Assembly (NCBI GenBank): GCA_020847545.1
Contig: JADLBV010000004.1
Location: 1 to 64,000, forward strand
Reading direction: 5' to 3'
Source: Phycisphaerales bacterium
Lineage (GTDB): Bacteria > Planctomycetota > Phycisphaerae > Tepidisphaerales > Tepidisphaeraceae
Length of the DNA stretch: 64,000 nt
Shown here: positions 13,267-29,093 of the stretch, piece after piece
How the letters are laid out: every line of letters starts with the position of its first letter
How positions within the stretch are numbered: position 1 is the first letter of the stretch
Program-made: the position numbers and the translations under genes
Notes under the pieces: model-generated
What the model was told of the DNA's origin: nothing
Database searches by the model: none
What the model saw: the letters and a program-made list of their open reading frames with translations, nothing else

Positions 13267-14844
13267 ATGCACAGAAGTAGATGTTCATCGACTCAATTGA
13301 TTGAGTCCCTCGAACCCCGCGTTCTATTGTCCGCCGTCGAGCCAACGCCAAACGAGCAATATCTCATCGAATTGATCAACCGCGCCCGCGCCAATCCCAC
13401 GGCCGAGGCCGCTTCATTCGGCATTGATCTCAACGAAGGCCTTTCACCCGGCACAATCTCCGCTGACCCCAAACAACCCTTGGCGGTCAATCCCTATATC
13501 ACCGACGCCGCTCGCAATCACAGCCTGCATATGCTCGATGTCGATCAGTTCGACCACGACGGCATCGGCGACGGCACCCCTTTCAGCCGGATGAGCGATG
13601 CGGGATATACCTTTGTCGCGCCGGCCGCATCGGCTGAGAATATCGCATGGTCCGGCTCCACACCCAGCGTGCCCGACACCCTGCAAACCATCGACGAAAT
13701 CCACCATGACCTCTTTGTGGACACCCCCATCCCCGACCGCGGCCATCGACTGAACCTGATGGACCCCAACCTCCGCGAAGTCGGCACCGGCATCGTCACC
13801 GGCGAATACACCAGCGGCTTCACCACCTACAACTCCGTGATGGTCACGCAGGATTTTGCCGACTCCACCGGCAATCCATTCCTCACCGGCGTCGTCTATC
13901 GCGACACCACCGTCAACGACAATTTTTATACCCCCGGCGAAGGGATCGGCGGCGTCACCATCACCGCCACCGATCTCAATACCCAAACCCAATACGCCAC
14001 GACTTCTCTCGACGCCGGCGGCTATAGCCTGGCGCTGCCGCCGGGAACCTATCGCGTTGTCGCATCGGATGTCGCCATTCATAAGATCTTCCGCGTCGTC
14101 ACAATCGGCGCTGAAAACCACAAGCTCGATTTCACCACGGATTCATTCGACGTCGGCCTCTATCGCGGGTCGGCCGCCCACTTTTTCTTCGACCGCAATT
14201 CCAACCACGAATGGGACAGCGGCGACCAGCATTTCGCATTCGGCCTGCCCAACGACCAGCCCATCGTCGGCGATTGGAACGGCGATGGAACCCTCAAGGC
14301 CGGCGTCTATCGCAACGGCCTGGTCTTCCTCGACACCAACGGCAATGCCGTATGGGATGCCGGCGACACCTTCTTCGCCTTCGGCCAAAGCGGCGACAAG
14401 GCCGTCGTCGGCGACTGGAATCGCGACGGCATCGACGACATCGGCGTCCATCGCGCCGGATATTTCTCGCTGGACATCAACGGCAACCACGTCTGGGACA
14501 ACGGAACCGATGTCGCCTTCGCCTTTGGCCTGCCCACCGACACCCCGCTGGTGGGCGATTGGAACGCCGACGGCTTTTATGATGTGGGCGTCTATCGCAA
14601 CGGCCTGTTTTTCCTGGATGCCAACGGCAACCGCGTCTGGAATACGGGAGATCGCTTTTTTGCCTTCGGCCTGCCCACCGACAAACCGGTGATCGGCGAC
14701 TGGAACCACGATGGCCATTCCAAGATGGGCGTCTTCCGCGACGGCCGATTCTTCCTCGACACCAATGGCAACGACCAGTGGGATCCAACCGATGACACCT
14801 TCATTTTCGGCCTCCCCACCGACCTGCCGCTGGCCGGTTTATAG
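13267..14844 (+). CDS. Secreted CAP/SCP-domain protein with LEPRVLLSA leader and repeat domain
   Basis: Predicted surface or extracellular protein. The N-terminus carries SLEPRVLLSA, the leader motif of many planctomycete surface proteins. Next is a CAP (SCP/PR-1) domain (about 30-190) with NEQYLIELINRARANP, the His-containing ARNHSLHM, AENIAWSG and RGHRLNLMDP. A short carboxypeptidase-regulatory-like segment follows (about 215-280). The C-terminal third has five repeats of about 45 residues built on FGLPTDxPxVGDWNxDG, GVYRNGLFFLD, NGNxVWDxGD. They are rich in acidic residues, FG-GAP-like and possibly calcium-binding. ATG 13267 has aagg nine bases upstream; ATG 13258 would add three residues. 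The role is unknown; adhesion or hydrolysis are options. Confidence 0.8.
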   Translation: MHRSRCSSTQLIESLEPRVLLSAVEPTPNEQYLIELINRARANPTAEAASFGIDLNEGLSPGTISADPKQPLAVNPYITDAARNHSLHMLDVDQFDHDGIGDGTPFSRMSDAGYTFVAPAASAENIAWSGSTPSVPDTLQTIDEIHHDLFVDTPIPDRGHRLNLMDPNLREVGTGIVTGEYTSGFTTYNSVMVTQDFADSTGNPFLTGVVYRDTTVNDNFYTPGEGIGGVTITATDLNTQTQYATTSLDAGGYSLALPPGTYRVVASDVAIHKIFRVVTIGAENHKLDFTTDSFDVGLYRGSAAHFFFDRNSNHEWDSGDQHFAFGLPNDQPIVGDWNGDGTLKAGVYRNGLVFLDTNGNAVWDAGDTFFAFGQSGDKAVVGDWNRDGIDDIGVHRAGYFSLDINGNHVWDNGTDVAFAFGLPTDTPLVGDWNADGFYDVGVYRNGLFFLDANGNRVWNTGDRFFAFGLPTDKPVIGDWNHDGHSKMGVFRDGRFFLDTNGNDQWDPTDDTFIFGLPTDLPLAGL

Positions 14845-21248: not shown

Positions 21249-21629
21249 GTGCCGTATCCGGTGAGTCAGGAACGTTTTGGGGAGTTGGTCGAGGAGGCGT
21301 TGGCCGAACTGCCGGAGGAATTTGCGCGATTTCTTGAGGAGGTTCCCATCGAGGTGCGTGATCGCCCATCGGCTGGTCAGCTTCGACAGTTGGGGATGGG
21401 TCGAAATGAATTGCTGCTGGGTTTGTATCAAGGTCGGCCGCGAACCAAACGAAGCGTCGAGGATTCGGGTCAGATGCCGGATGTCATCTATCTCTATCAA
21501 AAACCCATAGAATCGGTCAGCCGTTCAGAAAAGGAGTTGATCGACCAGGTTCGCACAACCGTTTTGCACGAGATCGGGCATCATTTTGGAATGGATGAGG
21601 AGGATTTGGACAAACTGGGCTACGGCTGA
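21249..21629 (+). CDS. Minimal zincin-like metallopeptidase (DUF1025 family)
   Basis: 126-residue putative zinc protease of the small zincin-like family (PF06262 type). It shows the active-site HEIGHHFGMDEEDL (HExxH plus downstream acidic residues) near the C-terminus and the conserved N-terminal FGELVEEALAELPEEF. The start is GTG 21249. It lies just before the membrane-fusion gene cluster, in the same direction but 145 bases away, so it may or may not belong to that transcription unit. Substrate unknown. Confidence 0.8.
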   Translation: MPYPVSQERFGELVEEALAELPEEFARFLEEVPIEVRDRPSAGQLRQLGMGRNELLLGLYQGRPRTKRSVEDSGQMPDVIYLYQKPIESVSRSEKELIDQVRTTVLHEIGHHFGMDEEDLDKLGYG

Positions 21630-21774
21630 GCCCGCTGGTAAAGATTTTGGCCTTGAGGTGACGATTTTCTTTAATTGGACGATCCTCAGGCTTGACCGGG
21701 CGTATGTCCGATTGATACTTCGGGGGTTAGAATGCGTAAGCGCCGGGGGCGGGCGGATGTCTGGAGATTCTGGA

Positions 21775-22641
21775 ATGATTCCTTGGAAGAGACAGTTGGG
21801 TTGTGTGGTGTTGTCGGCGGGTTTGCTGGCTGGCGGTTTGGCGTGGGGTGAAGATGCTCCATCAGCATCCGACCAGACTGTTCCGGCCGTGAGCAAGCCG
21901 TCGCAGAAGCGGGAATTGACGCTGACAATCCGCGGGACCATCAGCCAAGTGCCTGTCAAAGAAGGAGATACGGTCAAACAGGGGCAGCTTTTGCTGGCCG
22001 AGGATGATCGGGTGGAGCAAAAGGAATTGGAGCGATTGCAATTGGAGGCGCAGTCGCAGATTGCGATCAAGGCGGCCGAGGCCGAATTGAAGGTGAAGCA
22101 GGCGGAATTGGCCAATTACGAGGAGATGTTCAAGAATCACGCTTCCAACGAGATCGAGTTGCGCAAGGCGCAGGCGGAGGCGGAAGTGGCGTTGTTGCAG
22201 GTGGAGAAGGCCAAGCAGGACTCGGAAATCAGGACAAAAGAGGCCGAGAAACAGGCGGCGGTGTTGGAACTGATGCGTCGAACCAGCCCGATTGATGGGG
22301 TGATCGCCAAGCTGGATGTGGGTGTGGGTGAGGTGGTGGACCCGACCAAGCCGGTCTGCACGGTGGTGCAGAACAATCCATTGTGGGTGGAGGCGTATGT
22401 GCCGGTTGGCGTGGCGGCGCAGTTGAAGGTGGGGCAGAAGATGCAGGTGAGGTATCCGGAACAGGAGCAATGGCAGGCGGGAGAGGTGAACTTTCTCTCG
22501 CCGGTGGCGGATGAACGAAGCGGGATGCGACTGATTCGGTTGCAATTGCCCAATCCGGAGCTGCGCGAATCCGGTTTGAACATGCTGTTGAAATTGCCGG
22601 AGCAGCGGGTGGCACAGGCTGGGGATGCTGCTTCGCATTAA
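21775..22641 (+). CDS. HlyD-type periplasmic membrane-fusion protein
   Basis: Secreted adaptor of an efflux or export system. From ATG 21775 (ribosome binding site ggag eight bases upstream) the 288-residue protein has a signal peptide ending near AWGED. A first lipoyl half follows (VPVKEGDTVKQGQLLLAEDD), then a coiled-coil hairpin (about 75-165, rich in Glu, Ala, Gln and Lys), the second lipoyl half (RTSPIDGVIAKLDVGVGEVVDP) and a beta-barrel. Upstream in-frame codons to 21586 overlap the zincin gene and lack conservation. It is 29 bases before the GAF-HlyD gene, so the two are co-transcribed. No RND pump or outer-membrane channel is present in the window. Confidence 0.85.
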   Translation: MIPWKRQLGCVVLSAGLLAGGLAWGEDAPSASDQTVPAVSKPSQKRELTLTIRGTISQVPVKEGDTVKQGQLLLAEDDRVEQKELERLQLEAQSQIAIKAAEAELKVKQAELANYEEMFKNHASNEIELRKAQAEAEVALLQVEKAKQDSEIRTKEAEKQAAVLELMRRTSPIDGVIAKLDVGVGEVVDPTKPVCTVVQNNPLWVEAYVPVGVAAQLKVGQKMQVRYPEQEQWQAGEVNFLSPVADERSGMRLIRLQLPNPELRESGLNMLLKLPEQRVAQAGDAASH

Positions 22642-22670
22642 GTTTTGTCGGATTTGAAAAGGTAAAAGCG

Positions 22671-24584
22671 ATGTCATCAGGAATCGTTGAATCATCACAG
22701 GGATCGGGGGCGGATACGCCGGCGGCGTCCGGGCCGGCGCGATCGAAGCTGGTGCAGCGGCTGCTGGCGGCGTCGGAAAATCTGCCATCGTTCATGAACG
22801 ATCTGCTGACGACGCAGGCGGTCTCTGTGGCGGGGACGGAGGCGGCGGCGTTTTTGATCGAACGTCAGCAGGAGGCGGCGGCGGAGTTTAATTTGAGGCC
22901 GATCGCGCATATTCGGCCGGACAATTCGAGTCAGGAGGCCCGGCAGGCGGCGATCAATGCGTTTGTGGACATCATCCGGCCGTGCGTGATTCAAGGGAAA
23001 GATGGGGCGATTGAAGTCGGCCCGACACCCGATGCCGGGGAAATTCAGTATTGTCTGGTGACGCTGTTGCGCAGCGAGGGGCAGATCGTGGCGGTGTCGG
23101 CGGTGATCACGCGCTGCCGGGACTTGGAGCGGGCCAAGCAGCGGTTGATGTCGATGCAGTTGGTGGCGGGGTATTTTGAGCTGTATTCGCTTCGGCGCAG
23201 CAGCGAGCAGTCGCGGTTTATCGCACAAAGCCATCAGCAGGTGTTGCAACTGGCCGGCGCGGTGGCGACGGCGGAGGGGTTTGAGGGGGCGTCGATGAAC
23301 CTGTGCAACGAGCTGGCCCAGCGCAGCGGCGCGGCACGGGTGGCGATTGGATGGATTAACGGGACGCGGATCAGGCTCAAGGCGCTGTCTCATACGGAAA
23401 AGTTCGACAAAAAGCAGGAACTGGTGGTGGCTCTGGAACGCGCGATGGAGGAGTGCGTGGATCAGGAGCAGCCGGTGCAGTTTGATCCCAAGGGAGAGAC
23501 TTCATCCCCCAATGTGTCGCGCGCGGCCCGCGAATTGTCGCAATCGCAGGGTGGGAACATCGTGCTGACGCTGCCATTGCGGCGGCGGGCGGAGGTGGTG
23601 GGGGCGGTGACGCTGGAATTTTCATCGGAACGGCAACTGAGCGAACACGCGGCCGGCGGGCTGGCGGTGGCGGCGGATCTGCTCGCTCCCCAGTTGTATG
23701 ACCGGTTTCAAAATGACCGCTGGCTGATCACCAAGACGGGGGTGAGCATCCGGGAGACCGCCAAGCTGGCGGTGGGCCCCAAGCACATGCTGGCGAAGTT
23801 GATCATCGTGCTGGTGATCGCGGCGGGGTTGTTCGTGACGTTTTATCGCCCGATGTATCGCGTGGATGCGGCGTTCAAGTTTGTGCCGGTGCAGCGGCAG
23901 TCGATCTCGGCGCCGTTTGAGGGGAGGGTGCAGGAGGCGTATGTCCGGCCGGGGCAGGCGGTGAAGGCGGGCGAGTTGATGCTGAAGATGGACACCTCCG
24001 ACCTGGAGATAAAGCTTTCGGAGGCGATGAGCAAGGGGCAGCAACTGGCCAAGGAGGCGGATAAATATCGGGGCGAGGACAAGATCGCCGAAATGCGCAT
24101 CGCGATGGAGGAGAAGGCGCAGGTTGAGGCGCAGGTGCGGTTGATTCAGCTTCAGATTCAGCGGGCGAGCATCGTGGCGCCGATTGACGGTGAGGTGATC
24201 GCGGGGGATTGGCAGCATAAAAAGGGCGCGCCGTTGAAGCAGGGGGATGAGGTTTTTCAGGTGGCCGATCCGCATCATCTGCGGGCGGAATTGACGGTGT
24301 CGGACCGTGATATTCAGGAGATGGGGGAGCATTTTGTCGGCAAACTGGCGACAACCGGCCAGCCGCAGGAAAAGTATGAGTTTGAGGTGTCGCGGATCGT
24401 GCCGCTGGGGCGGGCGGATGAGGGGAGCAATGTGTTTACGGTTTATGCGGACATGAAACAGACATCACCGACGTGGCTGCCGGGGATGGTGGGACAGGCG
24501 CGGATTGACATTGCCAAGCGGCCGTTGGTTTGGATTTGGACGCATCGGGTGGTGGAGTTTGTGCGGTTGAAATTCTGGGTGTAA
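22671..24584 (+). CDS. GAF-domain membrane protein fused to HlyD-type adaptor
   Basis: 637 residues in an uncommon order. A cytoplasmic N-terminal region (1-190) precedes a GAF domain (about 205-345: LCNELAQRSGAARVAIGWINGTRIRLKA split by loops, ending VVGAVTLEFSSERQLS). One transmembrane helix follows (about 370-392, LAKLIIVLVIAAGLFVTF). The periplasmic part has lipoyl and hairpin segments of a membrane-fusion protein (about 400-620: SAPFEGRVQEAYVRPGQAV, IVAPIDGEVIAGDW). The GAF domain implies ligand or redox sensing coupled to the export adaptor. It follows the stand-alone adaptor and precedes the PqqD-M50 gene, separated by a repeat-filled 236-base gap. Confidence 0.85.
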   Translation: MSSGIVESSQGSGADTPAASGPARSKLVQRLLAASENLPSFMNDLLTTQAVSVAGTEAAAFLIERQQEAAAEFNLRPIAHIRPDNSSQEARQAAINAFVDIIRPCVIQGKDGAIEVGPTPDAGEIQYCLVTLLRSEGQIVAVSAVITRCRDLERAKQRLMSMQLVAGYFELYSLRRSSEQSRFIAQSHQQVLQLAGAVATAEGFEGASMNLCNELAQRSGAARVAIGWINGTRIRLKALSHTEKFDKKQELVVALERAMEECVDQEQPVQFDPKGETSSPNVSRAARELSQSQGGNIVLTLPLRRRAEVVGAVTLEFSSERQLSEHAAGGLAVAADLLAPQLYDRFQNDRWLITKTGVSIRETAKLAVGPKHMLAKLIIVLVIAAGLFVTFYRPMYRVDAAFKFVPVQRQSISAPFEGRVQEAYVRPGQAVKAGELMLKMDTSDLEIKLSEAMSKGQQLAKEADKYRGEDKIAEMRIAMEEKAQVEAQVRLIQLQIQRASIVAPIDGEVIAGDWQHKKGAPLKQGDEVFQVADPHHLRAELTVSDRDIQEMGEHFVGKLATTGQPQEKYEFEVSRIVPLGRADEGSNVFTVYADMKQTSPTWLPGMVGQARIDIAKRPLVWIWTHRVVEFVRLKFWV

Positions 24585-24637
24585 CGGAGTGAATTCATGA
24601 TCCTGTTTATTTCCACCATGATTGGCGGTGTGAAATG

Positions 24638-24722
24638 CGGTGGGGATGAACCCCACCCTACAAAGACCGTACTTGGGTGATGGTTCGTGATGGATGTTGT
24701 AGGGTGGGGTTCATCCCCACCG
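24638..24722. repeat. Palindromic repeat with perfect 26-bp arms
   Basis: Arms at 24638-24663 and 24697-24722 (core gtagggtggggttcatcccc) are perfect inverted copies around a 33-base centre. It lies between the GAF-HlyD and M50 genes, looks like a dispersed REP-like element, and could act as a terminator or mRNA stabiliser. Confidence 0.8.
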
Positions 24723-24762
24723 ATTTTTGGGGGTTCGAAATACGGGGGATGAAAGAATCGAA

Positions 24763-24808
24763 GAACCCTCTCCCCTGCCCCTCTCCCTGAGTACATGGAG
24801 AGGGAGAA
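24763..24808 (+). repeat. 46-bp hairpin repeat, copy 1, at the ribosome binding site of the M50 gene
   Basis: Contains the inverted pair ctctcc and ggagag. Its right arm ggagagggagaa lies 12 bases before GTG 24821 and supplies the only Shine-Dalgarno-like sequence. It differs at one base from copy 2 at 27106-27151. Confidence 0.75.
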
Positions 24809-24820
24809 GAGAAATAGAAC

Positions 24821-27004
24821 GTGACGTTGCAGCTTCGACCTACATTTTCGGAATCCTGGTATCGGGTGGCGGAACTGCGCGCCAAATTGCGGAGCAGCGC
24901 GCATATATTTCGCCAGTTTTATCGCGGCGAACGATGGTATGTCGTCCGCGACCCGGCGGGGAATCAGTTTCATCGGCTCAGCGACGCGGCCTATCGGTTT
25001 GTGGGGTTGCTGGATGGCAAGCGGACGGTGGCCGAGGCGTGGGAGCTGGTCGGCGGACAGTTGGCGGATGATGCGCCGACGCAACCGGAGGTGATTCAGA
25101 TCCTCTCGCAGCTTTATTCGGCCAATCTGCTGGAGGCGGACATCTCTCCCGATGCCACCGTCTTGTTGCGGCGACACAAGCAACTGCAAAAAAAACAGAT
25201 GCAGGGCCGGCTGATGAACGTGCTGTTCCCACGCATTCCGCTGTGGGATCCGGACAAGTTTCTGAAGCGCTGGATGCCGGTGATGCGGCTTCTGCTCAGC
25301 AAGTTCGGCGCGATTTTATGGCTGGTGGTGGTGGCGGCCGGGTTGTTCATCCTGACCAGCAGGGGGTGGGACAAACTGTTCGCGGCCACCAGCGCGGCGA
25401 CCAATCCGAGCAACTGGTTTTTCCTGTGGGTCACGTTTGTCCTGATCAAGTTCATCCACGAATGCGGCCACGCCTTCGCCTGCCGGAGATTCGGCGGCGA
25501 GGTGCATGAGATGGGGATCATGTTCCTGGTCTTCGTCCCCACACCCTATGTGGACGCTTCCACCGCGTGGGCATTCGCCAGCAGGTGGCAGCGAATGTTT
25601 GTCGGGGCGGCCGGCATGATCTTTGAATTGTTCGTCGCCTCCATCATGGCGTTCGTCTGGGCGAACACCAACGAAACATCAATGTGGAATCAACTGGCCT
25701 TCAACGCCATGCTGATCGCCAGCGTCACCACGATCATCTTCAACGCCAACCCATTGCTGCGTTACGATGGTTATTACATGCTCTCGGACTGGCTGGAGAT
25801 TCCCAATCTTCAGCAGCGCAGCACCGAATACGCGATGGGTCTGATCAAACGCCACATCTTCCGCGTGAAAATGCAGCAGCCGCTGCCGCCGTTGGGGCAG
25901 CGGGCATGGATGCTGGTTTATGCGATCTGTTCGTCGATTTATCGTGTGTTTGTCGGGATCGCGATCATCCTGTTTGTGGCCTTCAAGGTTCCGGTGCTGG
26001 GGGTGCTGATGGCCATCGGCGGGGTCATCACCTGGCTGGTGATGCCAGTGGTGAAACTGGGGCGATATCTGATGCTGGAGCCGGAATTGCACCGCAAACG
26101 CGGGCGGGCGATCGCGTTCAGCAGCGCGGTGGCGGCGGCGATTGTGATTCTGATCGGGCTGATCCGCTTCCCGGTGCATTTCCGGACAGAAGGAGTGGCC
26201 GAGCCGCTGCGGCAGGAACGGCTGTATGCGATGACATCGGGGTTTGTCAGTCAGATCCCGGCACACGATGGGCAACTGGTTCACAAGGGTGATCCGATTC
26301 TGATCTGCCGAAATGATGAACTGTCGACCGAGGTCAAACAGCTTCAGCATGTGTTGTCGGCACTGGAGATTCGGCGGCAATCCAATGTGTCCGATCCGGC
26401 ACAACGGCAGATTGATGAGATTGAAATCGCGGCCAATCGCACAAAACTGGCCGATGCGCAGCGAAGGTTGGATGACCTGACAATTCGCGCTCCCATTGAC
26501 GGTCGGCTGGTGGCGCCGGGGTTGGAGGATTTGTCAGGGCGGTTTTTGCCCGAACGAACCGAAGTGGCGATGGTGGCGGCGATGGACCAGTTGGTGGTGC
26601 GGTCGGTGTTGCAGCAGGCCGATGCGGAACTGGCGACGATGGTTCCCAAGGATCAGTTGCGACCGGAGGTGCGGCTGGCCGGCGCCAGCGATCAGGTGCT
26701 ACATGCGGTCAAGGTGGAGCTGATTCAGGGGGCGCAACAGGAGGTGGCCCACCCATCGGCGACATGGGCGGGGGGTGGAGAGGTGGCGGCCGATCCGCGC
26801 GATGAACGGCAGATGCGCACGCTGGTGCCGCAGTTTGAAGTGAGGGTGACGTTGGACAATGCGGGTGAGGTTTTTCATCCTGGACAGATGGCGGTGATTC
26901 GGTTCCGGCCATTCAGTCGGCCGTTGATTTGGCAGTGGACGAATAGTTTTTTGCGGTTGATTCAGACGGAGAGTATGCGGCAGCCGACGGGAATGACCCC
27001 GTGA
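24821..27004 (+). CDS. PqqD-like/M50 zinc protease/HlyD fusion membrane protein
   Basis: 727 residues in three parts. Residues 25-115 resemble PqqD (RiPP recognition element fold): WYVVRDPAGNQFHRLSDAA followed by LDGKRTVAEAWELV and ILSQLYSANLL. Next is a multi-helix M50 (site-2-protease-like) domain with HECGH (zinc ligands His213 and His217, Glu214 catalytic) and the third-ligand motif NPLLRYDGYYML near 310. A final helix (about 425-445) leads to a periplasmic HlyD-type part (VSQIPAHDGQLVHKGDPIL, coiled coil, DDLTIRAPIDGRLVAPGL). The architecture recalls YydH-type peptide zinc metalloproteases. I infer it binds, cuts or exports a peptide; no precursor is obvious. Confidence 0.85.
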   Translation: MTLQLRPTFSESWYRVAELRAKLRSSAHIFRQFYRGERWYVVRDPAGNQFHRLSDAAYRFVGLLDGKRTVAEAWELVGGQLADDAPTQPEVIQILSQLYSANLLEADISPDATVLLRRHKQLQKKQMQGRLMNVLFPRIPLWDPDKFLKRWMPVMRLLLSKFGAILWLVVVAAGLFILTSRGWDKLFAATSAATNPSNWFFLWVTFVLIKFIHECGHAFACRRFGGEVHEMGIMFLVFVPTPYVDASTAWAFASRWQRMFVGAAGMIFELFVASIMAFVWANTNETSMWNQLAFNAMLIASVTTIIFNANPLLRYDGYYMLSDWLEIPNLQQRSTEYAMGLIKRHIFRVKMQQPLPPLGQRAWMLVYAICSSIYRVFVGIAIILFVAFKVPVLGVLMAIGGVITWLVMPVVKLGRYLMLEPELHRKRGRAIAFSSAVAAAIVILIGLIRFPVHFRTEGVAEPLRQERLYAMTSGFVSQIPAHDGQLVHKGDPILICRNDELSTEVKQLQHVLSALEIRRQSNVSDPAQRQIDEIEIAANRTKLADAQRRLDDLTIRAPIDGRLVAPGLEDLSGRFLPERTEVAMVAAMDQLVVRSVLQQADAELATMVPKDQLRPEVRLAGASDQVLHAVKVELIQGAQQEVAHPSATWAGGGEVAADPRDERQMRTLVPQFEVRVTLDNAGEVFHPGQMAVIRFRPFSRPLIWQWTNSFLRLIQTESMRQPTGMTP

Positions 27005-27007
27005 GGT

Positions 27008-27097
27008 TGATTTTTGATTTTTGATTTGCGATTTTCGAATGAAAGACAAATTTCCCGCCTCATCAATCAAAAATCGGCAATCAAAAATCAAAAATTA
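27008..27097. repeat. AT-rich imperfect inverted repeat
   Basis: Left arm 27008-27035 and right arm 27069-27097, built from tttttgat and atcaaaaa units, pair with few mismatches. It sits between the M50 and SecA-like genes. A dispersed-repeat or terminator role is possible. Confidence 0.6.
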
Positions 27098-27105
27098 ACA
27101 ATACA

Positions 27106-27151
27106 GAACCCTCTCCCCTGCCCCTCTCCCTGAGTACAGGGAGAGGGAGAA
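27106..27151 (+). repeat. 46-bp hairpin repeat, copy 2, at the ribosome binding site of the SecA-like gene
   Basis: A perfect 10-bp stem (ccctctccct and agggagaggg) surrounds the loop gagtac. Its right arm ends 7 bases before ATG 27159 and contains the Shine-Dalgarno. One base differs from copy 1. Confidence 0.75.
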
Positions 27152-27158
27152 AAAGTGA

Positions 27159-29093
27159 ATGTCACAAGTCCTGCACAACGAGGTTTATGAGGTCTTTGAC
27201 GCCCGTAGGGTCAAGGCGCCGGAGCTGCGCGGGTTGGATCAGTTCGTGAATGGGATGGTGGGGTGGGCGAAGAATCGTCGGCCGATGCTCAAACGGCTCA
27301 AGGCGATGGCCGATCAGGTTGAAAAACTGGAGCCGGAAATTCATGATTTGGGGGCGACGCGGTTTCGCGAGAAGGTGGCCGAGTCACGGGATATGGCGCG
27401 GCTGGGCCGGCTGGAGGGGGAGGCATTCATTCGCGGCGTGGCGATGGCACGGGAGGCGGCCTGGCGGGCGCTGGGTTTGCGGCCATTTGCGGTGCAGTTG
27501 ATGGGGGCGATGGCGATGTGCCGGGGGGCGATTGCCGAGATGGCGACCGGCGAAGGCAAGACACTGACGGCATCCTTGGCCGCGTCGATCTGGGCGTGGG
27601 GTGGCCGGCCGGTGCATGTCATTACGGTCAACGATTATCTGGTGACGCGCGATGCCCACGAAATGGGGCCGGTCTATCAGTTGATGGGGTTGTCGGTGGG
27701 TTCGGTGGTGCATGAATCGACGCCACAGGAACGTTATGAACATTACCGGCGGGATGTGGTCTATTGCACCAGCAAGGAGTTGCTGGCCGACTTTTTGCGA
27801 GACCAGATCGCGCTGGGGAATGTGCGCACATCAACACAGATGGCGCTGGGGATGATGATCGCACCCGAATCGCGGGCGATGATGGTGCCGGGGTTGTTCC
27901 GCGTGATCGTGGACGAGGCCGACAGCCTGTTGATTGATGAGGCGGTGACGCCGTTGATCATTTCCAATTCGCCGCAGGAGGATGCCAACGCGGTGCTGTA
28001 TCGGGCGGCCGATGAGTTGGCGACGAAATTGAAATCCGGGCGAGATTTTCTGATCGATTGGACAACCCGCACGGTGGAATTGACCGCGCGCGGGCAGGAT
28101 CGGCTGGACCTGCTGGCCGATGGTTCGGGTTTTTGGCGCGGCCAGCGCCGCCGTGAGGAACTGGTGACGCAGGCGCTGGTGGCGCGGCATTGTTTCATCC
28201 GCGATGAGCAGTATCTGATCGCCGAGGATGGCAGCGTGCAGATCATTGATGAATTCACCGGCCGGGTGATGGCCGACCGAAGCTGGCGGCACGGCCTGCA
28301 TCAGGCGATTGAGGTCAAGGAGAACGTCAAGGTCACCGCCGACAAGGAAAATCTGGCACGGCTGAGTTTTCAGCGGTTTTTCCGCCAATATCCCACGATG
28401 GCCGGCATGACCGGCACGGCATGGGAATCATCGGGTGAATTGTGGCAGATTTATCAGCGGCCGGTAATCCGTATCCCCACCAACCGGCCGTGCATCCGCG
28501 TGCAACTGCCGGTGCGCATGTTCGACACGATGGAACAGAAATGGGAGGCGGTGGTGGGGCGGGTGTGTGAATTAAACGATCAGGGGCTGCCGGTGCTGGT
28601 GGGGACGCGCAGCGTGCTGGCATCGGAGGAGGTCAGCAAACGGCTTGGCGCCATGAGTCGGGCGCATCGCGTCCTGAACGCCAACCAGACCGCGCAGGAG
28701 GCATCCATCGTGGCCGAAGCGGGGCAGGTGGGGCGTATTACCGTCGCCACCAACATGGCCGGCCGGGGAACCGACATTAAATTGGGCAAAGGGGTCGCCG
28801 AACTGGGCGGGCTTCAGGTGATCGCCACCGAACCGCATGGTTCGAGCCGGGTTGATCGCCAGCTTTTCGGCCGCGCTGCACGTCAGGGCGATCCCGGGTC
28901 GGCACAACTGTTCAGCTGCGCGGAGGATGACCTGTTCATCCGGCACACACCCGTCGCCCGCAAGGCCTGGCGAACAATCGGACCCGCCCGGCTCATCCGC
29001 ATCGCCCAGGCCCGCGCCGAACGGCTGGCGCGGTTCAATCGCAAACAGGTCCTCAAGTCGGATGAATGGATGGACCAGTCGTTGCCGTTTTGA
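27159..29093 (+). CDS. SecA-like ATPase, shortened paralogue
   Basis: 644 residues against about 800-900 for housekeeping SecA. Present are the DEAD-motor motifs: Walker A MATGEGKT (about 127), VITVNDYLVTRDA, Walker B VIVDEADSLLIDEA, EFTGRVMADRSWRHGLHQAIE, MAGMTGTA, TNMAGRGTDIKLG, and GRAARQGDPGSAQLF. The protein ends about 60 residues after that last motif. The helical wing, most of the scaffold domain and the C-terminal zinc-binding tail are therefore missing. The N-terminal 95 residues differ from typical SecA. Linkage to the M50/HlyD genes suggests a dedicated accessory ATPase rather than the general translocase, but a direct interaction is inference. Confidence 0.85.
   Translation: MSQVLHNEVYEVFDARRVKAPELRGLDQFVNGMVGWAKNRRPMLKRLKAMADQVEKLEPEIHDLGATRFREKVAESRDMARLGRLEGEAFIRGVAMAREAAWRALGLRPFAVQLMGAMAMCRGAIAEMATGEGKTLTASLAASIWAWGGRPVHVITVNDYLVTRDAHEMGPVYQLMGLSVGSVVHESTPQERYEHYRRDVVYCTSKELLADFLRDQIALGNVRTSTQMALGMMIAPESRAMMVPGLFRVIVDEADSLLIDEAVTPLIISNSPQEDANAVLYRAADELATKLKSGRDFLIDWTTRTVELTARGQDRLDLLADGSGFWRGQRRREELVTQALVARHCFIRDEQYLIAEDGSVQIIDEFTGRVMADRSWRHGLHQAIEVKENVKVTADKENLARLSFQRFFRQYPTMAGMTGTAWESSGELWQIYQRPVIRIPTNRPCIRVQLPVRMFDTMEQKWEAVVGRVCELNDQGLPVLVGTRSVLASEEVSKRLGAMSRAHRVLNANQTAQEASIVAEAGQVGRITVATNMAGRGTDIKLGKGVAELGGLQVIATEPHGSSRVDRQLFGRAARQGDPGSAQLFSCAEDDLFIRHTPVARKAWRTIGPARLIRIAQARAERLARFNRKQVLKSDEWMDQSLPF

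Follow-up and report, generated by a model that had tools for sequence, protein, structure and literature searches.

We describe a block of four genes, A to D, that we interpret as one planctomycete copy of a widespread and apparently undescribed bacterial export machine. Genes B, C and D are linked, by position and by co-occurrence, to genes for LEPR-XLL proteins. We consider it likely that A-B-C-D is dedicated to exporting proteins marked by an N-terminal LEPR-XLL tag, and the putative cargo consists of large proteins of hundreds to ∼18,000 residues. Planctomycetes are known for giant proteins. To our knowledge, no export route has been established for bacterial proteins of 5,000–18,000 residues devoid of an ordinary signal peptide, and the machine proposed here would probably account for the release of proteins of up to ∼18,000 residues.

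The gene block

The block lies on the plus strand of the window, by which we mean the whole 64,000-nt stretch of DNA analyzed; all coordinates are positions in the window (Table 1). A preliminary description of this DNA had assigned the four co-directional genes to their families, and Pfam searches agree with it, with the start of gene A moved from 21775, which is the next in-frame ATG, to the ATG at 21757. The product of gene A matches HlyD_3 (1.1e-20) and RND_mfp TIGR01730 (104.6 bits, cut-off 94.9), and has a signal-peptide-like stretch at the N-terminus and no further membrane helix. The B protein combines a GAF match (3.3e-5) with HlyD_3 (3.8e-19) around a single transmembrane helix at residues 366–396; the GAF match is stronger in proteobacterial B proteins (GAF_3, 2e-12). 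Gene C starts with GTG. The B-C and C-D gaps measure 236 and 154 bp in this genome and both bear repeats: an identical 28-bp C-rich repeat, of which no instance is expected by chance, occurs at 24767–24794 and 27110–27137 on the plus strand. The two copies probably belong to a dispersed repeat that has inserted into both gaps.

Table 1. Coordinates of the block genes, the putative substrate and its tag in the window
Feature	Position	Strand	Basis
Gene A: periplasmic membrane-fusion (HlyD/RND-type) adaptor, 294 aa	21757-22641	+	HlyD_3, RND_mfp TIGR01730
Gene B: cytoplasmic GAF region, one TM helix, periplasmic HlyD adaptor, 637 aa	22671-24584	+	Pfam, TM prediction
Gene C: PqqD-like N-domain, polytopic M50 (HExxH) protease, HlyD adaptor, 727 aa	24821-27004	+	Pfam, model
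Gene D: SecA paralogue, 644 aa: NBD1, preprotein-crosslinking domain, NBD2, first scaffold helix	27159-29093	+	Pfam, alignment, model
Putative substrate: LEPR-XLL protein, CAP and CarboxypepD_reg domains, 528 aa	13258-14844	+	NF012209, 21.5 bits
LEPR-XLL tag of the putative substrate: IESLEPRVLLSA	13300-13335	+	NF012209; fits consensus of 67 proteins

A protease-adaptor fusion and a cut-down SecA

In the C protein, Pfam recognizes Peptidase_M50 (4e-9) and HlyD_D23 (1e-5). The PqqD match is weak (2.8e-4; 21.6 bits, slightly below the cut-off of 23.4), and a profile of the C family matches the PqqD structure 3g2b with an E-value of 7e-4. The M50 zinc-binding and catalytic residues H213, E214, H217 and D316, that is, the HExxH motif and the distal aspartate, are invariant in 69 sequences. 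The predicted model of C (pLDDT 91.5) resembles the MacA, AcrA and MexA adaptors at residues 448–710 (Z 14–17); its matches in structure libraries are chiefly to adaptors, with none to M50 listed, although this comparison barely probes the M50 and PqqD parts.

Gene D encodes a SecA paralogue, with Pfam matches to SecA_DEAD (1e-92), P-loop_SecA (7e-48) and SecA_PP_bind (6e-26). The same search detects no SecA wing or scaffold model and nothing past NBD2, and the alignment with Bacillus subtilis SecA stops at residue 551 of the latter. The model of D (pLDDT 89.9; TM 0.81 against SecA-SecY structures in Foldseek) ends in one long helix, residues 609–641. The protein had been described as a shortened SecA paralogue, and it does end after the first scaffold helix, while a separate full-length SecA is encoded on contig 149 of the same genome. 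D shares with SecA and SecA2 proteins NBD1, the preprotein-crosslinking domain, NBD2 and all motor motifs, and is 36% identical to the full-length SecA of its genome over these parts, but is missing the helical wing, the rest of the scaffold with the two-helix finger, and the C-terminal linker. The D proteins of other phyla are 43–52% identical to that of the window, and are thus nearer to it than the SecA of its own genome. In all NCBIfam SecA and SecA2 models D scores well under the cut-off (for example, 534 against 800 in TIGR00963, 489 against 930 in TIGR03714 and 449 against 725 in TIGR04221). All 66 sequences compared share the Walker A motif (TGEGK, residues 130–134), the DEAD-box and the motif VI arginines of D without variation. 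The invariance of these motor motifs and of the HExxH and aspartate residues of C suggests that both proteins are probably active.

Conservation of the block across phyla

Comparison of 40 planctomycete loci reveals that the order A-B-C-D is the rule in the family of the window, where nearly all members compared have it, and B-C-D is the rule in the class. Bacterial genome contigs encode at least 591 relatives of C; the best 80 of these belong to Alpha-, Beta- and Gammaproteobacteria, Desulfobacterota, Nitrospira, Omnitrophota and Rokubacteria. B-C-D forms a tight operon in the three proteobacterial classes, Desulfobacterota, Nitrospira and Rokubacteria, often joined by A, a DUF3467 gene and, at some loci, tolC. 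Among the loci of other phyla, which are those of the best 80 C relatives together with plasmid loci, B immediately precedes C in all 79 testable cases, and D comes right after C in 74 of 78. A is near the block in 50 of 66 loci of other phyla, and the median gaps there are operon-like (9 bp between B and C, –8 bp between C and D). The preservation of gene order across phyla and the overlap of genes indicate that the grouping is not due to chance. The four genes had been proposed to form one machine unless the linkage were absent from relatives; it is conserved in them, both within the family and beyond the phylum.

No ABC transporter is part of the block: an ABC-like ATPase, searched for by motif, occurs on the strand of C nearby in 2 of 88 loci, and the annotated plasmid operons contain no ABC transporter save an unrelated peptide-uptake set in L107. 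The lack of a cognate ABC or RND pump, noted earlier for the window, is a property of the system and not a gap of the window. TolC is encoded within 10 kb of the block in only 7 of 62 loci, and six OEP proteins are encoded elsewhere in the window's genome. The sole small gene that recurs beside the block in other phyla encodes a DUF3467 protein of ∼100 aa and lies upstream in 29 of 77 loci. B, C and D have no PADLOC match that would point to a role in defence.

LEPR-XLL proteins adjoin the block

The LEPR-XLL domain is defined by the NCBIfam profile NF012209, with a cut-off of 17 bits. The window itself encodes such a protein 7 kb upstream of the block (CAP 3.5e-8, CarboxypepD_reg 5.5e-8), although no substrate had been recognized there in the preliminary description. 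In two planctomycete loci, large proteins with golvesin-C, amidase, fn3 and weak dockerin matches adjoin B-C-D, and their N-termini contain LEDRVLLSG or LEPRQLLSS, both of them forms of the LEPR-XLL motif.

In Proteobacteria, the gene next to the block typically encodes a LEPR-XLL giant of 4,000–14,400 residues. Annotated alphaproteobacterial plasmids have the giant gene first, followed in the same direction by B, C, D and A; a DUF3467 gene often stands between the giant and B, and tolC sometimes closes the series. The giant is annotated as LEPR-XLL in Pseudosulfitobacter, Pontibrevibacter and Thalassospira, where its gene spans 12.1–38.8 kb (D and DUF3467 are not present at all three); in Methylosinus and Alisedimentitalea the giant goes under another name, and the record has a LEPR-XLL match at its start. 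Every plasmid record contains a LEPR match. Overall, LEPR-XLL matches pass the cut-off in 46 of the 51 genomes or records that carry C, most frames being 4,000–14,400 residues long. With contigs paired by position only, the distance from the end of a LEPR-XLL frame to the start of C equals the length of a B gene in 22 of 43 genomes, and in up to 7 further genomes of the 43 such a frame starts just downstream of C. Some of the giants contain RTX repeats.

One LEPR-XLL frame, of 17,824 codons, ends just upstream of C on the plus strand (genome G212, contig C4, 103221) and encodes a protein that is remarkably large for bacteria. Several planctomycetes, among them G010, G069, G002 and G008, have ∼40–49 LEPR-XLL matches at a loose E-value limit and a single C. 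Many LEPR-XLL matches for one C per genome suggest that one machine would serve many cargos.

Co-occurrence of C and LEPR-XLL

The association was quantified in three samples from different phyla or classes. The planctomycete class sample comprised 101 genomes, of which 72 matched C; two weak adaptor-only matches were reckoned as C-less, leaving 70 with C. At E≤0.0125, LEPR-XLL was found in 62 of these 70 and in 1 of the 31 others (p=3e-17, a value that, like the other p-values, ignores shared ancestry). Within-family permutation and the independent samples serve as the safeguard: outside the window's family, C and LEPR-XLL agree in 66 of 75 class genomes, and the observed agreement was reached in 3 of 20,000 within-family permutations. 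In an alphaproteobacterial family (149 genomes), LEPR-XLL accompanies C in 16 of 16 genomes, against 2 of 133 without C; C was required to exceed 250 bits, LEPR-XLL had E≤2.2e-5 in all 16, and a limit of 1e-4 was used for the C-less genomes. One of the two C-less genomes, G232, has a more distant C. The Vibrio family (197 genomes) yields 8 of 9 with C against 0 of 188 without at E≤0.001 for the latter comparison, the C-bearing matches comprising seven at E≤1.1e-5 and one at E 0.003.

The only C-less planctomycete genome in which a LEPR-XLL match is clearly genuine and over the cut-off is G079 (89% complete), which counts against strict pairing. Matches above E∼0.03 in C-less genomes are mostly due to chance, falling in tiny frames and covering the C-terminal half of the profile, whereas the window's own genome has genuine-looking matches with E-values as high as 2.2. 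The per-genome LEPR counts are therefore rough.

The N-terminal tag

Alignment of 67 N-termini gives the tag consensus [FLM]-E-x-L-E-P-R-x-L-L-S-[AG], common to both phyla; because the N-termini were chosen by the LEPR profile, the core letters are partly so by construction. An aspartate (D) follows the consensus in 40 of 40 proteobacterial N-termini, and ∼30–50 residues rich in lysine and arginine precede the tag. The median peak hydropathy of the LEPR-XLL N-termini is 1.2, compared with 2.16 for the signal peptides of the A proteins. Such low hydropathy, lacking the hydrophobic core of a signal peptide, sets the tag region apart from ordinary Sec signal peptides. Five proteins of the window's genome have the tag pattern; two of them pass the profile cut-off, one being the protein listed in Table 1.

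A proposed export mechanism

In the proposed mechanism, the basic N-terminus and tag of the unfolded cargo would be bound in the cytoplasm by the PqqD-like domain of C, aided by the GAF part of B, and the M50 site of C would cut at the tag or close to it. D would act as a SecA motor, devoid of the regions with which ordinary SecA acts on SecYEG, and thread the chain at the expense of ATP. Tag binding, cleavage and pushing of the chain are proposed by analogy with these protein families. Since D lacks the parts acting on SecY, passage through the inner membrane could be provided by C and B themselves or by SecYEG used in another way. The HlyD adaptors of A, B and C may form a periplasmic tube that docks on a TolC-type outer-membrane channel, from which the cargo would emerge as a surface adhesin or an extracellular enzyme. 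Three adaptors, the tolC genes of some operons and the six OEP proteins of the genome are most naturally read as an envelope-spanning conduit; its outer-membrane partner would be TolC, whose gene belongs to the operon in some Proteobacteria and lies away from the block in the window's genome. Against the scheme stand the weak PqqD match, the small share of loci with TolC nearby, the blocks in which D is not next to C, and the C-less LEPR-XLL genome G079.

The block could instead be a maturation or surface-retention module, with the cargo leaving by SecYEG or by an unlinked type I ABC exporter and the block trimming its N-terminus and anchoring or releasing the protein. In favor of this, some giants bear RTX repeats, a usual mark of type I cargo; adaptors together with a membrane protease could also work after transport, and a few blocks have no D. 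Intact ATPase motifs throughout the SecA-like protein, TolC in some operons and the lack of a linked ABC transporter point to transport, however, and the LEPR N-terminus has no signal-peptide core; we regard such a module as unlikely. That the genes are unrelated chance neighbors, as the repeat-bearing gaps of the window's genome might hint, has next to no probability given an order kept across phyla and overlapping genes.

It is also highly improbable that C matures a small leader peptide, as in daptide and epipeptide clusters, with the adaptors and the SecA-like protein exporting the product. C does have a PqqD-like domain, and its best NCBIfam match is the daptide intramembrane protease NF041824, but the score of 164.4 bits is far under the 300-bit cut-off. 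The search for RiPP maturases and small open reading frames suggested with the preliminary description retrieved no maturase or precursor that recurs beside the block in planctomycete loci, and we rejected the RiPP reading of the block on this ground; the recurring partners are huge LEPR-XLL proteins, the small DUF3467 gene being confined to a minority of loci. Recognition, cleavage and export, which that description had proposed as the joint function, very probably hold as judged from the sequences, with large LEPR-XLL proteins in place of a small RiPP-like peptide as cargo.

Relation to known systems

The proposed export system resembles type I secretion (ABC exporter, HlyD adaptor and TolC, including the RTX adhesin exporters) in its HlyD-type adaptors, the TolC-type channel of some operons, very large RTX- or adhesin-like cargo and an apparent single-step crossing of both membranes. 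It differs in having a SecA-like ATPase and an M50-adaptor fusion and no ABC transporter, in a putative cargo tag that is N-terminal where the type I signal is C-terminal, and in adaptors fused to GAF and protease domains. In contrast to accessory SecA2, D is linked to adaptors and TolC and not to SecY2 or Asp proteins. The M50 proteases of daptides and epipeptides (YydH-LiaK) share with C the polytopic M50 fold and HExxH, and the daptide model also spans the PqqD-like N-domain, but C is fused to a HlyD adaptor, is associated with giant cargo and scores far under the family cut-offs. Thus, the block fails as type I secretion on the ABC pump, as SecA2 on domain content and score, and as a RiPP protease on score and cargo. 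The best explanation is that the SecA-like ATPase and the M50/adaptor fusion stand in place of the type I ABC pump.

Exosortase/PEP-CTERM sorting likewise pairs a short motif, carried by many proteins of a genome, with a single processing enzyme in the membrane. The likeness ends with the tag being N-terminal here, the protease an M50, and a motor and adaptors standing alongside.

We see an even chance that the block represents a new class of secretion system, in which a PqqD/M50/adaptor fusion reads the tag and a SecY-independent, SecA-derived motor drives giant proteins through an adaptor-TolC conduit in many phyla. In planctomycetes, such a system would handle an entire secretome, which could number up to tens of proteins in one genome. 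The match of one machine to one tag would allow the secretome of many uncultured bacteria to be predicted from a 12-residue motif, and the finding suggests that evolution has recruited SecA to power a type I-like architecture.

The LEPR-XLL proteins (NF012209), the putative cargo family itself, were already named in annotation; their link to B-C-D is added here and is apparently new in the open-access literature. In searches of open-access full texts we found no description of such a block, and the papers on giant proteins or giant genes examined there do not mention LEPR. A LEPR-XLL protein of ∼8000 aa from Vibrio is in print, in a passage that names no export or processing machine (PMC10868602). 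Tripartite systems have been reviewed as driven by ABC, RND or MFS transporters, with no SecA-type member in the relevant parts of that review (PMC8277102).

Variant blocks and neighboring genes

D does not adjoin C in four loci (L109, L129, L151 and L187). A second planctomycete block type consists of B and C without D, often with a PilZ-domain gene just upstream of B (L046, L047, L049, L052 and others). These exceptions indicate that D may be replaceable or work outside the core of the system, and the PilZ gene suggests c-di-GMP control of the D-less blocks.

A DUF3467 gene stands beside the block in planctomycetes (L036:13189-13593) as it does in Proteobacteria; its product is perhaps a chaperone of the cargo. 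In the Pseudosulfitobacter operon, a SapC family gene is located between C and D (L105:22245-23066). Directly upstream of A in the window is a gene for a Zincin_1 (PF06262) metallopeptidase (21249–21629, plus strand), which also precedes A in seven relatives from the window's family, often with genes for an SppA-like signal peptide peptidase and a further conserved protein on its outer side.

Three genomes of the alphaproteobacterial family above (G206, G227 and G232) encode distant relatives of C, scoring 120–180 bits, directly downstream of giant frames in which the LEPR match reaches only ∼16 bits. They may represent a sister system whose tag has diverged.
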